A model generated the notes under the pieces. The model did not search any database, was not told the DNA's origin, and saw nothing but the letters and a program-made list of their open reading frames with translations. DNA of 64,000 nt, from the NCBI GenBank assembly GCA_016932995.1, contig JAFGBU010000020.1, positions 1 through 64,000 on the forward strand. Reading direction: 5' to 3'. This DNA is from Desulfovibrionaceae bacterium. Its GTDB lineage: Bacteria; Desulfobacterota; Desulfovibrionia; Desulfovibrionales; Desulfovibrionaceae. The translations under genes and the position numbers were made by a program. This document shows positions 41,641 to 46,609 of this stretch, one piece after another; the first letter of the stretch is position 1; every line of letters begins with the position of its first letter.

Positions 41641-41841
41641 TCAGCTGAACCCGCCGCCGGGTTTGCACCCGGCCGCGGGGGCTGCGGCCTTTTTCCTGGG
41701 CCCCCCGGAAAACACGGACAAGACCCTCTCGACCTCGCGGCCCTTGCACTGCGGACACTTCGGCCTGTGCTCGCGGCCAGCGGGCGCGAGGTCCTCGAAA
41801 CTGTGGCCGCAGGCCCGGCACCGGTATTCATAAATGGGCAC
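41641..41841 (-). CDS. FmdB-family zinc-ribbon protein
   Basis: 66 aa from a GTG at 41841 giving MPIYEYRC, the usual FmdB start, with GAGGG six bases upstream (a TTG two codons earlier is less likely). CRACGHSFEDL and CPQCKGREVERVLSVFSGG form a two-knuckle zinc ribbon. A short Ala/Lys-rich tail ends in CKPGGGFS. FmdB proteins are small putative regulatory proteins first noted with formamidase/amidase operons; their molecular role is unclear. It diverges from the zinc-stress gene zraP and shares its control region. It is convergent with the radical SAM gene, 2 bp apart. Confidence 0.92.
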   Translation of the reverse strand: MPIYEYRCRACGHSFEDLAPAGREHRPKCPQCKGREVERVLSVFSGGPRKKAAAPAAGCKPGGGFS

Positions 41842-41871
41842 GGGCAACCCTCAAGCGCATAGCTTTCAACA

Positions 41872-41899
41872 ATACTAAGCCCGGTCTGGACCCTGTCAA
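41872..41899 (-). promoter_or_regulatory. Sigma70-type promoter of the fmdB gene
   Basis: On the minus strand TTGACA (complement of 41894-41899), a 16-nt spacer and TAGTAT (complement of 41872-41877) lie 31 nt before the GTG. The first TTGCACA motif begins 8 bp upstream of the -35 box. Confidence 0.7.
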
Positions 41900-41906
41900 C
41901 CCGGGC

Positions 41907-41955
41907 TTGCACATTGCACAAACCTTGTGCATAATTTTGCACATATCCCTGCACA
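41907..41955. promoter_or_regulatory. Cluster of TTGCACA motifs, putative activator-binding array
   Basis: TTGCACA is at 41907-41913, 41914-41920 (directly abutting) and 41937-41943. The variant CTGCACA is at 41949-41955. The inverted copy TTGTGCA at 41925-41931 makes a perfect TGCACAA-N3-TTGTGCA palindrome (41915-41931). The array sits about 50-100 bp upstream of the sigma54 element, the usual place for enhancer sites of an NtrC-type regulator. The ZraR-like protein encoded at 45248 is the obvious candidate. This assignment is inferred. Confidence 0.75.
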
Positions 41956-42005
41956 TGACCGCGCCTTTCAGGTGTACCGGCTTGAAATAACATCATGTTT
42001 TCGGC

Positions 42006-42021
42006 TGGCACAGGTCCTGCT
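42006..42021 (+). promoter_or_regulatory. Sigma54 (-24/-12) promoter of zraP
   Basis: TGGCACAGGTCCTGCT matches TGGCAC-N5-TTGCW with one mismatch; the invariant GG (42007-42008) and GC (42019-42020) are exactly 10 bases apart. It predicts a transcript starting near 42032, leaving a leader of about 47 nt before zraP. Confidence 0.82.
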
Positions 42022-42078
42022 ACATGGATGCCGAACGCGCCGTCCTGGCTGACAGGCGGCAAACCAACGGAGGTATTC

Positions 42079-42555
42079 ATGGCAAAGAAGACGACACTGG
42101 TTCTTGGGACGGCCCTGGCCGCGCTCCTGGTGGCCGGCCTGGCCCTGGCCGGGCCCTACGGCCACGGAGACGGTCCGGGAATGGGCCGGATCTACGCCCA
42201 GCTGAGCCCGGAAAAGCAGGCCCTCGTGGACAAGGTCATGGACCAACACCAGGCCAAGTCCCATGATCTGCGCGAGAAGATGTGGGCCAAGAGGACCGAG
42301 CTCGACGCCCTGGTCAGGTCCGGCAAGGCCGAGAAAAAGGACATCCAGTCCCTGGTCCAGGAGATGACCAGGCTCAGGTCCGAGATGCACACCGAGCGCG
42401 AGGCCCTGCGCGCCGAGCTGACCAAGGAGACCGGCATCGAGCCGCCTCGGCGCGGCCTTGGCCCCGGGTTCGGCGAACGGGCCCACGGCTTTGGTCCGGG
42501 CAACGGGCCGGGCGCGGGCCGCTGCGGGTTCGGCGAACGGCCCTGCGGCTACTAA
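42079..42555 (+). CDS. zraP: ZraP-like periplasmic zinc-resistance-associated protein
   Basis: 158 aa from the ATG at 42079 (GGAGG five bases upstream). A signal peptide (1-24) precedes GPYGHGDGPG, then LSPEKQ (LTXXQ-like, 42-47) and long charged helices with coiled-coil character (48-118). The Gly-rich tail carries His/Cys. The tail contains two copies of GFGER (from a repeated 15-bp DNA segment) followed by His or Cys, plausible zinc ligands. ZraP/Spy/CpxP-type proteins are periplasmic chaperones induced by envelope stress or zinc. The sigma54 promoter and the downstream ZraS/ZraR-like pair support the name. Confidence 0.88.
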   Translation: MAKKTTLVLGTALAALLVAGLALAGPYGHGDGPGMGRIYAQLSPEKQALVDKVMDQHQAKSHDLREKMWAKRTELDALVRSGKAEKKDIQSLVQEMTRLRSEMHTEREALRAELTKETGIEPPRRGLGPGFGERAHGFGPGNGPGAGRCGFGERPCGY

Positions 42556-42591
42556 CCACAAACAATCCTCTGGGGAACGGGTCATTGGTCA

Positions 42592-42621
42592 GGGCGGTCC
42601 GGACGGCCGGGCCGCCCTTTT
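42592..42621 (+). terminator. Intrinsic terminator after zraP
   Basis: GGGCGG (42592-42597) pairs with CCGCCC (42612-42617), followed by TTTT, 36 nt after the zraP stop codon. It would make zraP mostly a single-gene transcript, with partial read-through to the kinase genes possible. Confidence 0.75.
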
Positions 42622-42665: not shown

Positions 42666-42703
42666 TGCTTCGGGTGGCCCGAAACCGAACCCAAGGGATG
42701 GAC

Positions 42704-43531
42704 ATGCTCAGAAAAACCACCTCCCTGACCGGCCTCTTCTCCTTTGCCGCGCTGTCCGCGACCAGCGTGGTCCTCTACTTCGAGCCCCACGGCAGGGTGG
42801 CCTACTGGTCGAACTGGACCTTTCTGGGCCTGGGCAAAAACGACTGGGACGCCATGCACCTGGCCTCGGGCGTGCTCTTCGTGATCTCCTGCCTGGCGCA
42901 CATCTGGCTCAACTGGAGGCCGATCACCGCCTATCTCAAGGACAGAACCCGCAGGCTGGTGGTCTTCACCCCGGCCATGTGCCTCGGCCTGGGCCTGACC
43001 GCGTTCTTCTGCCTGGCCGCGGTCAGGGGCTGGCCCCCGGTCAGCCAAATCCTTGAGTTCAACGAGTACCTCAAGGACCTCCAGGCCGCGGTCCACGGCA
43101 ACCCGCCCTACGGGCACGCCGAGCTCAGCACGCTCAAGGCCTACTGCGGCTATCTGGACCTCGACCCGGCCCTGGCCCTGGACGCCCTCATAAAAGCCGG
43201 CCTGCGCGTGGACTCTGAGGGCTCGACCATCCTGGCCATCGCCCGGGCCAACGCCGCGACCCCGCAGAATATCCATGAGATCGTGACCCTGGCCCTTCGC
43301 CCGGACGACCCCTTTGCCGCCCTGCCGCCCCGGCCCCCGGAAGGCACGGGCAGGATGAGGCTCGCGGACTTCTGCGCCCAGCACGGCCTGCCCCTGGACA
43401 AGGTCCTGGACAGGCTTTCCGCGGCCGGGATCAGGGCCGAGGCGGGCATGAGGCTCAAGGACCTGGCCGCGGCCCACGGGGTCGAGCCCGCAAAGATATA
43501 CGCGCTCATACGCTCCAAGGCCGGTGGATAG
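42704..43531 (+). CDS. DUF4405-domain membrane protein
   Basis: 275 aa from the ATG at 42704 (AAGGG six bases upstream; an ATG two codons earlier is too close to it). Three hydrophobic helices are predicted at about 7-26, 50-70 and 86-106. His52 and His66 in the second helix (DWDAMHLASGVLFV, LAHIWLNWRP) fit the DUF4405 pattern, which resembles small haem-binding membrane domains. The soluble C-terminal half has two similar helical units ending in MRLKDLAAAHGVEPAKIYALIR. Its role is unknown. It lies 2 bp before the kinase gene, so it may be a membrane partner of the sensor. Confidence 0.82.
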   Translation: MLRKTTSLTGLFSFAALSATSVVLYFEPHGRVAYWSNWTFLGLGKNDWDAMHLASGVLFVISCLAHIWLNWRPITAYLKDRTRRLVVFTPAMCLGLGLTAFFCLAAVRGWPPVSQILEFNEYLKDLQAAVHGNPPYGHAELSTLKAYCGYLDLDPALALDALIKAGLRVDSEGSTILAIARANAATPQNIHEIVTLALRPDDPFAALPPRPPEGTGRMRLADFCAQHGLPLDKVLDRLSAAGIRAEAGMRLKDLAAAHGVEPAKIYALIRSKAGG

Positions 43532-43533
43532 AC

Positions 43534-45267
43534 GTGGACGTCAGCTGGAGGCGCAGGGAAAAGGGGCCCCTCCTGGCCGCGATCCTGGCCCTCGCGGTCC
43601 TGGGCGCGGGCAGCCTGTTTCTCACCTGGCAGAGCATCGAGCGCCAGCGCGAGGCCCTTGACGAGCACATGGCCCTGGCCGGCGGCGCGGTCATGCACGG
43701 GGTCGAGGGCCAGATCATGCGCCTCATGCGCGACCTGCGCTCCGGACCGGGCGCGGCCTCGCTCATGCCCCTGCTCGCCTCCGAGCTGTTCAAGGACATG
43801 GCCGGCCTGGAGGACATCTCGTTCATCGGCCTCTACGGCCGAGGCGGCCTGCTCGCGGCCGCATCGGGCGAGCCCCCCCCGGAGCTGGGCCAACGGCTCC
43901 CCGACCAGGTCCTGGCCGCGCTGGCCCAAAACGGCCGCTGGAGCCGGATGGCCGGGAGCGGAGAGGACCAGGTCCTGCTCCTGGCCAGGCCGGCCAGGCC
44001 GCCCCTGGCCAGGGCCTGCGACCTGGCCAGGCCCGGACCGGGCCGCCCGGCCCAAGGGCCCCCGGCCGTCCTGACCGTGGGCCTCAACGCCAAGAGGCAC
44101 CTGGCCCGCTTCGACCAGTCCCGACGCGCGGCCATGATACAGGCCGGGTACGTGCTCGGCGCGGCCCTGCTGCTCTGGGGCCTGGGCTTCGCCTACCTGC
44201 GCCGCAGGGACCAGGCCAGGCGGCTCTCGGGCCTGGAGCGCTTCCAGTCCAAGCTCCTGGACAGCATGCCGGACGGCATCCTGAGCATCGGCCCGGCAGG
44301 CGAGATCACCGCGGCCAACGGCTCGGCCGCCGGGCTTCTGGCCGCGCCGGGCGAAAGGACCCGGCTCATCGGCCGCAAGTGGTCCGAGTTCCCCTTCCAG
44401 GACCTCTGCCAGGGCCCTGAGTGGCGCAAGTACGACCACCAGGGCAGGAGGCTGGAGATGCTCTGCGTGCCCCTGCAGGAGCCGGCAGGCCCGCAGGAGG
44501 CCCCGGAGCGCCTCATCCTGGTCAGGGACCGGACCAGGATGAAGGCCCTGGAGGACGACCTCCAGGAGGCCAGGCGCCTGGCCGAGGTCGGATCCCTGGC
44601 CGCCGGGGTGGCCCACGAGGTGCGCAACCCCCTGAGCTCGCTGCGCGGATTCGCCCAGCTGTTCGCCGAAAAGCTGGCCGGGGACCAGACCCTGGCCGCC
44701 TACGCCGAGACCATGGTCCAGGAGGCCGACCGCCTGAACCGGGTGGTCACGGACCTCCTGTTTCTGGCCCGGCCCAGGGACCTGGCCCCAAGGGACCTGG
44801 ACCTGGATGCGGCCGTCCAGGACCTGTTCAGGCTCCTGCGCTTCGAGCTCAAGGCCAAGGAGGTGAGCCCGAGGCTGGACATCGAGGCCGAAACCGTGTT
44901 CGCCGATCCCGACGCCCTGCGCCAGGCCCTTTTGAACCTGCTGGTCAACAGCCTGGACGCCCTGCCGGACAAGGGCGGGGAGTTGCGCCTGGCCTCCAGG
45001 CGCGGCGCTGACGCCAAGGGCTGGCCCGGGACCTGGCTGAGCGTCGAGGACAACGGCCCGGGCATGGCCGGGGAGGTCAGGGACCGGGCCCTGGAGCCCT
45101 TCTACACGGCCAAGGAAAAGGGCACCGGCCTGGGCCTGGCCATTGTCCAGACCATCATGCGCGGCCACAAGGGCCTGGTGGAGATCGACTCCGGGCCCGG
45201 CCAAGGCGCGAGGCTCAAACTCTTTTTCCCGGACCCGGAGGCAGGCGATGAACGACCCGCGGCGTAG
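43534..45267 (+). CDS. ZraS-like sensor histidine kinase
   Basis: 577 aa (GTG start). Two membrane helices (about 12-32 and 203-222) flank a periplasmic sensor domain of about 170 residues. A PAS-like domain follows (about 233-335). The HisKA domain has the phospho-acceptor His361 in AHEVRNPLSSLRG. The ATPase domain has NLLVNSLDALPDKGG (N box), VEDNGPGM (G1) and GTGLGLAIVQTIM (G2). This matches NtrB/ZraS-type kinases that pair with sigma54 activators. The sensor domain is unclassified, and zinc is only inferred from the zraP linkage. The 3' end overlaps the regulator gene by 20 bp. Confidence 0.93.
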   Translation: MDVSWRRREKGPLLAAILALAVLGAGSLFLTWQSIERQREALDEHMALAGGAVMHGVEGQIMRLMRDLRSGPGAASLMPLLASELFKDMAGLEDISFIGLYGRGGLLAAASGEPPPELGQRLPDQVLAALAQNGRWSRMAGSGEDQVLLLARPARPPLARACDLARPGPGRPAQGPPAVLTVGLNAKRHLARFDQSRRAAMIQAGYVLGAALLLWGLGFAYLRRRDQARRLSGLERFQSKLLDSMPDGILSIGPAGEITAANGSAAGLLAAPGERTRLIGRKWSEFPFQDLCQGPEWRKYDHQGRRLEMLCVPLQEPAGPQEAPERLILVRDRTRMKALEDDLQEARRLAEVGSLAAGVAHEVRNPLSSLRGFAQLFAEKLAGDQTLAAYAETMVQEADRLNRVVTDLLFLARPRDLAPRDLDLDAAVQDLFRLLRFELKAKEVSPRLDIEAETVFADPDALRQALLNLLVNSLDALPDKGGELRLASRRGADAKGWPGTWLSVEDNGPGMAGEVRDRALEPFYTAKEKGTGLGLAIVQTIMRGHKGLVEIDSGPGQGARLKLFFPDPEAGDERPAA

Positions 45268-46609
45268 CGTCCTGGTGGTCGACGACGAGCCCGGCCACCG
45301 GCTCATGGTCCGGGCGGTCCTGGAGCACGCCGGCTGGCTGGTCCTGGAGGCCGCTTCCGGGGCCGAGGCCCTGCACATCGTCGCCGCCCAGGGTCCGGAC
45401 GCGCCCCAGGCGGCCCTGGCGGACATGCGCATGCCCGGCATGGACGGCCTGGCCCTGCTCAGGGAGCTCCGCTCCAGGCGGCCGGACATGCCGGTGATCC
45501 TGTTCACCGCCTTCGGCAGCGTGGGCTCGGCGGTCGAGGCCATGAAAAAGGGGGCCTTCGACTACCTGACCAAGCCGGCGGACAACGAGGAGCTCAAGGC
45601 GGTCCTGGACAAGGCCTTTGAGTACCGCCGCCTGGTGGTCGAGAACGCCAGGCTCCGGGAGGCCGTGGGCCGACCCCTGGCCGACACCCTGATCGGGTCC
45701 GGCCCGGCCATGGATCGGGTCCGGGCCCTGGTGGCCCAGGCCGGGCCCTCCGAGGCCACGGTCCTGATCAGCGGCGAGTCGGGCACGGGCAAGGAGCTGG
45801 TGGCCAGGGCCCTGCACAGGGCCAGCCCGAGGTCCGCGGGCCCCCTGGTCACGGTCAACTGCGCCGCCCTGCCCGCGGAGCTCCTGGAGAGCGAGCTGTT
45901 CGGCTATAAAAAGGGCGCGTTCACCGGCGCGGCGCGCGACAAGCCCGGCCGCTTCCAGCTGGCCCACGGGGGCACGCTGTTTCTGGACGAGATCGGCGAG
46001 CTGCCCCGGCCCGTCCAGGCCAAGCTGTTGCGCGCCCTGCAGGAGCGCCGCGTGGAGCCCTTGGGCGGCCTGGGGCCGGAGGAGACCGACGCGCGCATAA
46101 TCGCGGCCACCAACCGGGACCTGCGCCGGGACGTGGAGGCCAAGAGGTTCAGGGAGGACCTGTTCTTCAGGCTGGCGGTCCTGGAGATCGACATCCCGCC
46201 GCTCCGGGAGCGGCTGGAGGACCTGCCGCTCTTGGTCGGCCACCTGCTCGGCAAGCTGGGCGAAAAGAACGCCAAGCGGGTGCGCAGCGTGTCCCCGGCC
46301 TTCATGGAGGCCCTGGGCGCGCACGACTGGCCGGGAAACGTGCGCGAGCTGGAAAACGTGCTCGAACGGGCCCTGATCCTGGCCCGCTCCGACCGCCTGG
46401 GCCCCGAGCTGCTGCCGCCCCAGATCTCGGGCCGGGCCAAGGGGTCCGGGACCGCTGCCCCGGACTCGCTCGACCAGGCCGAGAAGCAGGCCTTGGTGCG
46501 CGCCCTTGAGGCCAACCAGGGCCACCGCCAGAACACCGCCGACGACCTGGGCGTGAGCCGCCGCAGCCTGCAGTACAAGCTGAAAAAATACGGGCTCACC
46601 AAACGCTAG
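45248..46609 (+). CDS. Sigma54-dependent response regulator, ZraR/NtrC family
   Basis: 453 aa. The receiver domain has Asp12/Asp13, phospho-acceptor Asp59 ([12 protein letters not shown]) and Lys110. The AAA+ domain has Walker A GESGTGKE (177-184), the sigma54-contacting loop GAFTGA (224-229) and the Walker B region [12 protein letters not shown]. The Fis-type helix-turn-helix at the C-terminus is [25 protein letters not shown]. All features needed to open a sigma54 promoter are present. It very likely acts on the promoter at 42006 through the TTGCACA array. Confidence 0.95.

Follow-up and report, generated by a model that had tools for sequence, protein, structure and literature searches.

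Between a leftward fmdB-like gene and a rightward zraP-like gene lies an intergenic space (positions 41842–42078, between the gene starts at 41841 and 42079) within the 64 kb stretch of DNA that was analysed, hereafter the window. The features in and around this space are as follows.

41641–41841, minus strand: fmdB-like zinc ribbon gene, 66 aa, GTG start at 41841 (Pfam Zn_ribbon_8, 59.3 bits, cut-off 34.4)
41872–41899, minus strand: sigma-70-like match for fmdB, TTGACA-16-TAGTAT (10/12 match)
41907–41955, plus strand, 49 bp: array of five TGCACA/TGTGCA half-sites, a putative upstream activating sequence (word reading and conservation)
41915–41931, unstranded: convergent palindrome TGCACAA-N3-TTGTGCA
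41926–41943, unstranded: exact outward dyad TGTGCA-N6-TGCACA, conserved in relatives
42006–42021, plus strand: sigma-54 (-24/-12) element TGGCACAGGTCCTGCT (direct reading, conservation, rpoN in the genome)
42079–42555, plus strand: zraP-like gene for a periplasmic Metal_resist protein, 158 aa (PF13801, 59.1 bits, over the cut-off)
42591–42621, plus strand: strong hairpin followed by UUUU, a possible partial terminator (z -2.5 for the 85-nt stretch)
42698–43531, plus strand: DUF4405 membrane protein gene (profile match; within the operon in many relatives)
43534–45267, plus strand: ZraS-like sensor histidine kinase (HisKA and HATPase)
45248–46609, plus strand: ZraR-like response regulator of the NtrC family, the probable activator (Response_reg, Sigma54_activat, HTH_8)

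Direct reading of the intergenic space confirmed the four direct motifs and one inverted motif that the initial annotation had described within 49 bp (41907–41955). The direct copies comprise TTGCACA at 41907–41913, 41914–41920 and 41937–41943 and CTGCACA at 41949–41955, and the inverted copy, TTGTGCA, occupies 41925–41931. The TGGCAC-N5-CTGCT element with exact GG-N10-GC spacing was likewise found at 42006–42021: within TGGCACAGGTCCTGCT the GG (42007–42008) is separated by ten nucleotides from the GC (42019–42020), and the element fits the pattern TGGCAC-N5-YTGCT. The genome carries rpoN (Sigma54_DBD, 204.8 bits), which together with the candidate enhancer-binding site upstream places the element in the sigma-54 class. 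NtrC-family regulators had been expected to bind 80–150 bp upstream of such a promoter; the upstream placement holds, but the array lies 51–99 bp from the -24 element, with 72 bp between the dyad centre and the -24 GG, which is towards the lower limit of that range.

The genes for ZraP, the DUF4405 protein, the kinase and the regulator are all co-directional, and a GGAGG sequence (42069–42073) precedes zraP. The NCBIfam equivalog cut-offs are not reached for ZraP (49 of 200 bits), ZraS (233 of 479) or ZraR (396 of 760), and the gene names are therefore used here in the sense of ‘ZraPSR-like’. The hairpin at 42591–42621 lies between zraP and the DUF4405 gene and possibly governs how much ZraP is made relative to ZraSR; it is absent from the output of the terminator scan, which demands five T residues.

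A search of the same family found homologues of zraP and zraR in 149 genomes, from which 60 regions were taken. The gene order radSAM-(fmdB)-zraP-(DUF4405)-zraS-zraR is widely kept among these relatives. A sigma-54 element scoring at least 5/6 is present at 49 of 50 syntenic zraP loci, and at least two half-sites occur within 200 bp upstream of it at 47 of the 50; at one locus (L149) a recognisable promoter was not found in the scanned interval. The upstream regions of these 50 zraP genes (up to 300 bp) hold 157 exact half-sites. Dinucleotide shuffles give 18.6, with a maximum of 30, and control windows placed within the operon give 7. Beyond this family, array, promoter and synteny are also retained in families f4 and f6 of the same order (L324–L329, L334). 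A lack of conservation upstream of orthologous zraP genes, which the initial annotation had named as grounds for giving up its reading, was thus not observed. Since the relatives retain the layout, the control region is genuine, and the array and promoter are a control region of an already known bacterial kind.

A tally of all half-site spacings at these loci also defines the likely recognition unit. Half-sites are arranged as an outward dyad with 12 bp from TGTGCA to TGCACA, exactly in 23 of the 50 loci and with at most one mismatch in 37, and other short spacings are represented at zero or nearly so. The symmetrised consensus is tTGTGCA-N6-TGCACAa, and that of the promoter is TGGCACG-N4-(A/C)TGCT. 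From the conservation of this arrangement, the dyad at 41926–41943 is a probable high-affinity site for a regulator dimer. The convergent TGCACAA-N3-TTGTGCA, which had been put forward as the recognition unit from the window alone, occurs at one of the 50 loci, namely that of the window, and the outward dyad is conserved in its place. In pattern searches of the whole source genome the sole exact match to the convergent palindrome was the copy in the window, and matches with up to two mismatches elsewhere fell in genes resembling those for the ATP synthase b subunit and homoserine dehydrogenase; the palindrome was consequently rejected as a regulon motif. The only exact dyad in this genome, and likewise the only combination of a half-site with TGGCAC, lies at zraP. 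A wider regulon in the same genome was sought with looser patterns, which returned scattered single matches judged to be chance; the dyad with two mismatches gave 185 matches against 50 in a reversed control and is uninformative as a search pattern.

The occurrence of the motif follows the type of regulator encoded nearby. The helix-turn-helix of the orthologous regulators is near-invariant, commonly reading GHRxxTAxxLGxSRRxLQYKL with rare departures, and the recognition helix in the window is SRRSLQYKL. Fourteen zraP paralogues at 11 loci, which lie beside a regulator of 46–49% identity with the helix NKSEAARRLGITRxTLHxKL, have no dyad, and six of the 14 have a sigma-54 element. Conversely, dyad and promoter accompany three unlinked zraP copies with no regulator of their own nearby (L218–L220), and several zraR operons that lack a detected zraP carry an array or dyad upstream (L170, L172, L175, L179, L181). 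No local array was found at four loci of family f1 (L171, L176, L178, L180), nor beside the regulators of families f2 and f5 (L315–L323, L330–L333), which share the recognition helix; some f2 and f5 genomes have array-plus-promoter matches elsewhere, where the targets of the regulator may sit. Because the motif co-varies with the regulator, the nearby ZraR-like protein is very probably the activator of zraP. The initial proposal that the protein encoded at 45248–46609 binds the TGCACA sites and activates zraP therefore stands as very probable, on the basis of motif conservation, the presence of rpoN and the co-variation with the recognition helix. Many relatives possess a second, paralogous type of zraP/kinase/regulator locus, in which the genes diverge and the recognition helix differs (L221–L230, L232).

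Several other explanations for the region were weighed. A fortuitous cluster of TGCACA words next to a fortuitous -24/-12 match would agree with the frequency of the single words: in the window TTGCACA occurs four times against 3.5 expected and is not over-represented, and TGGCAC-N5-TTGCW with up to one mismatch occurs once against 2.0 expected. As the single words are insignificant alone, the significance derives from clustering, combination and conservation. There are 27 TGCACA/TGTGCA half-sites in the 64 kb; under a Poisson model, five within 50 bp would be expected about 4e-8 times across the window, and no second cluster of at least three in 50 bp occurs elsewhere in it. The strict pattern TGGCAY-N6-TGC has two matches on both strands of the window, of which only that at 42006 extends to TGCT. 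With the layout also kept in dozens of species, coincidence is refuted by conservation and its probability is negligible. The palindrome at 41915–41931 could instead serve nitrogen control as an NtrC-type site, and not be a site for ZraR. The textbook spacing of NtrC half-sites is TGCAC-N7-GTGCA, and this is matched exactly in the window. That spacing is nevertheless peculiar to one of the 50 orthologous loci, against 23 with the exact outward dyad, and the array goes with the ZraR clade and with zraP, which makes nitrogen control at these sites very improbable.

It is also very improbable that the array is chiefly activated through another enhancer-binding protein, such as a DVU0621 orthologue. 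One study of Desulfovibrio vulgaris reports DVU0621 as a second regulator targeting DVU3384 (PMC3333781), but a later study assigns DVU3384 to DVU3381 and not to DVU0621 (PMC4641369), and the presence of the array follows that of the linked ZraR orthologue with its recognition helix. A different question is whether the same sites also repress or modulate fmdB, such that the region would be shared by two divergent promoters. The sigma-70-like promoter described for fmdB is present, with its -35 box at 41899–41894 and its -10 side at 41877–41872; the end of the -35 box is 7 bp from TTGCACA and, as had been noted, 8 bp when counted to the TGCACA core. A divergent fmdB gene is found 66–100 bp from the array in several relatives. 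FmdB is divergent at only 11 of 52 zraP loci, however, the array and sigma-54 promoter persist where it is missing, and no comparable sigma-70 match occupies the same place at the other fmdB-bearing loci. With the gene so seldom divergent and its promoter unconserved, shared control is unsupported, and the suggestion that the array modulates fmdB was not upheld: co-control is unlikely, though a lineage-specific effect may exist, and fmdB is probably a lineage-specific neighbour and a bystander outside the regulon. A regulatory link (to zraP) is thereby parted from a positional accident (fmdB), and the palindrome proposed from the window alone is corrected.

The distance from the dyad centre to the -24 GG is restricted among the loci, with values of 60–63, 69–76, 81–83, 92–97, 105–106 or 117 bp. 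These distances have a period of about 11.2 bp (R 0.69), with p of about 5e-5 using jitter and about 8e-4 for the 21 unique distances, values that are inflated because the loci share descent and are less independent than the statistics assume. One explanation, to which we give an even chance, is that the enhancer has shifted in evolution only by whole helical turns, to stand about 61, 72, 82, 94, 105 or 117 bp from the -24 GG, and acts only from one face of the DNA, with copies of the module having reached further targets in related genera, possible small RNAs included. The phasing offers a natural data set on the rotational tolerance between a sigma-54 promoter and an enhancer at short range.

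Taken with the conservation and co-variation, the sequence anatomy makes it highly likely that 41907–42021 holds both the enhancer and the sigma-54 promoter for zraP-DUF4405-zraS-zraR, an auto-regulated operon for envelope or metal stress that is activated by the ZraR-like protein. In the proposed mechanism, dimers of the phosphorylated regulator (45248–46609) would bind TGTGCA-N6-TGCACA at 41926–41943 together with the flanking half-sites and oligomerise across the array. The regulator would then contact RNA polymerase-sigma-54 at 42006–42021, about 72 bp away and always on the same helical face, and the promoter would be opened through ATP hydrolysis. ZraP would be made in excess, as the hairpin at 42591–42621 would limit read-through, and the transcripts that pass it would feed DUF4405-zraSR and so account for the predicted autoregulation. 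The signal may be envelope or metal stress; zinc as the inducer is a guess from the name. A related zraP gene in D. alaskensis fell strongly under copper (PMC8836040). For E. coli ZraR a broader role in envelope stress has been proposed, with zinc as activator.

The zraP-zraS-zraR synteny and the shared upstream motif place the locus with the Desulfovibrionaceae ZraR regulators of the DVU3381 type. DVU3381 regulates DVU3382-DVU3381 and DVU3384 in an envelope stress response (Kazakov 2015; PMC4641369), and its motif, according to Rajeev 2011 (PMC3333781), was tested by EMSA and is conserved in close relatives. The two systems are alike in having a ZraR-like regulator, in the kind of target, in sigma-54 dependence (predicted for the present locus), in having a motif conserved among close relatives and in the small number of targets, a likeness drawn from regulator and targets; the dyad found here, TGTGCA-N6-TGCACA, corresponds to TGT-N12-ACA. 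They differ in that zraSR of D. vulgaris is a separate regulated unit, whereas here the entire cluster has a single array and promoter in front of it. With ZraPSR of E. coli the locus has in common the periplasmic Metal_resist protein, the histidine kinase and the NtrC-family regulator and, as predicted from its sequence, autoregulation and a zraP gene under sigma-54. The E. coli genes zraP and zraSR diverge from an enhancer that lies between them. The genes described here instead run in one direction with DUF4405 between them, and they score below the NCBIfam equivalogs. As at NtrC enhancers, paired dimer sites lie upstream of a -24/-12 promoter and would act by DNA looping, but the conserved dyad is the outward TGTGCA-N6-TGCACA, and the NtrC-like arrangement is confined to the window.

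A precise candidate recognition sequence, TGTGCA-N6-TGCACA, is thus tied to one recognition helix of a stress regulator that is conserved among sulfate reducers. In two related genera (g38 and g21; L294–L301, L302–L313), stretches of 300–600 bp that lack a plausible gene and contain conserved blocks lie downstream of TGCACA arrays with strict sigma-54 promoters. These stretches may encode small RNAs that depend on sigma-54 and belong to the same regulon; the candidates have no match in Rfam and their covariation is weak. Related genera also carry the array and sigma-54 module before second zraP genes and other small envelope proteins. At L275, L289, L290, L283 and L291 the genes behind it are second copies of Metal_resist genes and genes for a protein with weak likeness to SHOCT, a membrane protein resembling cytochrome b, and two small unnamed proteins whose starts look like signal peptides.
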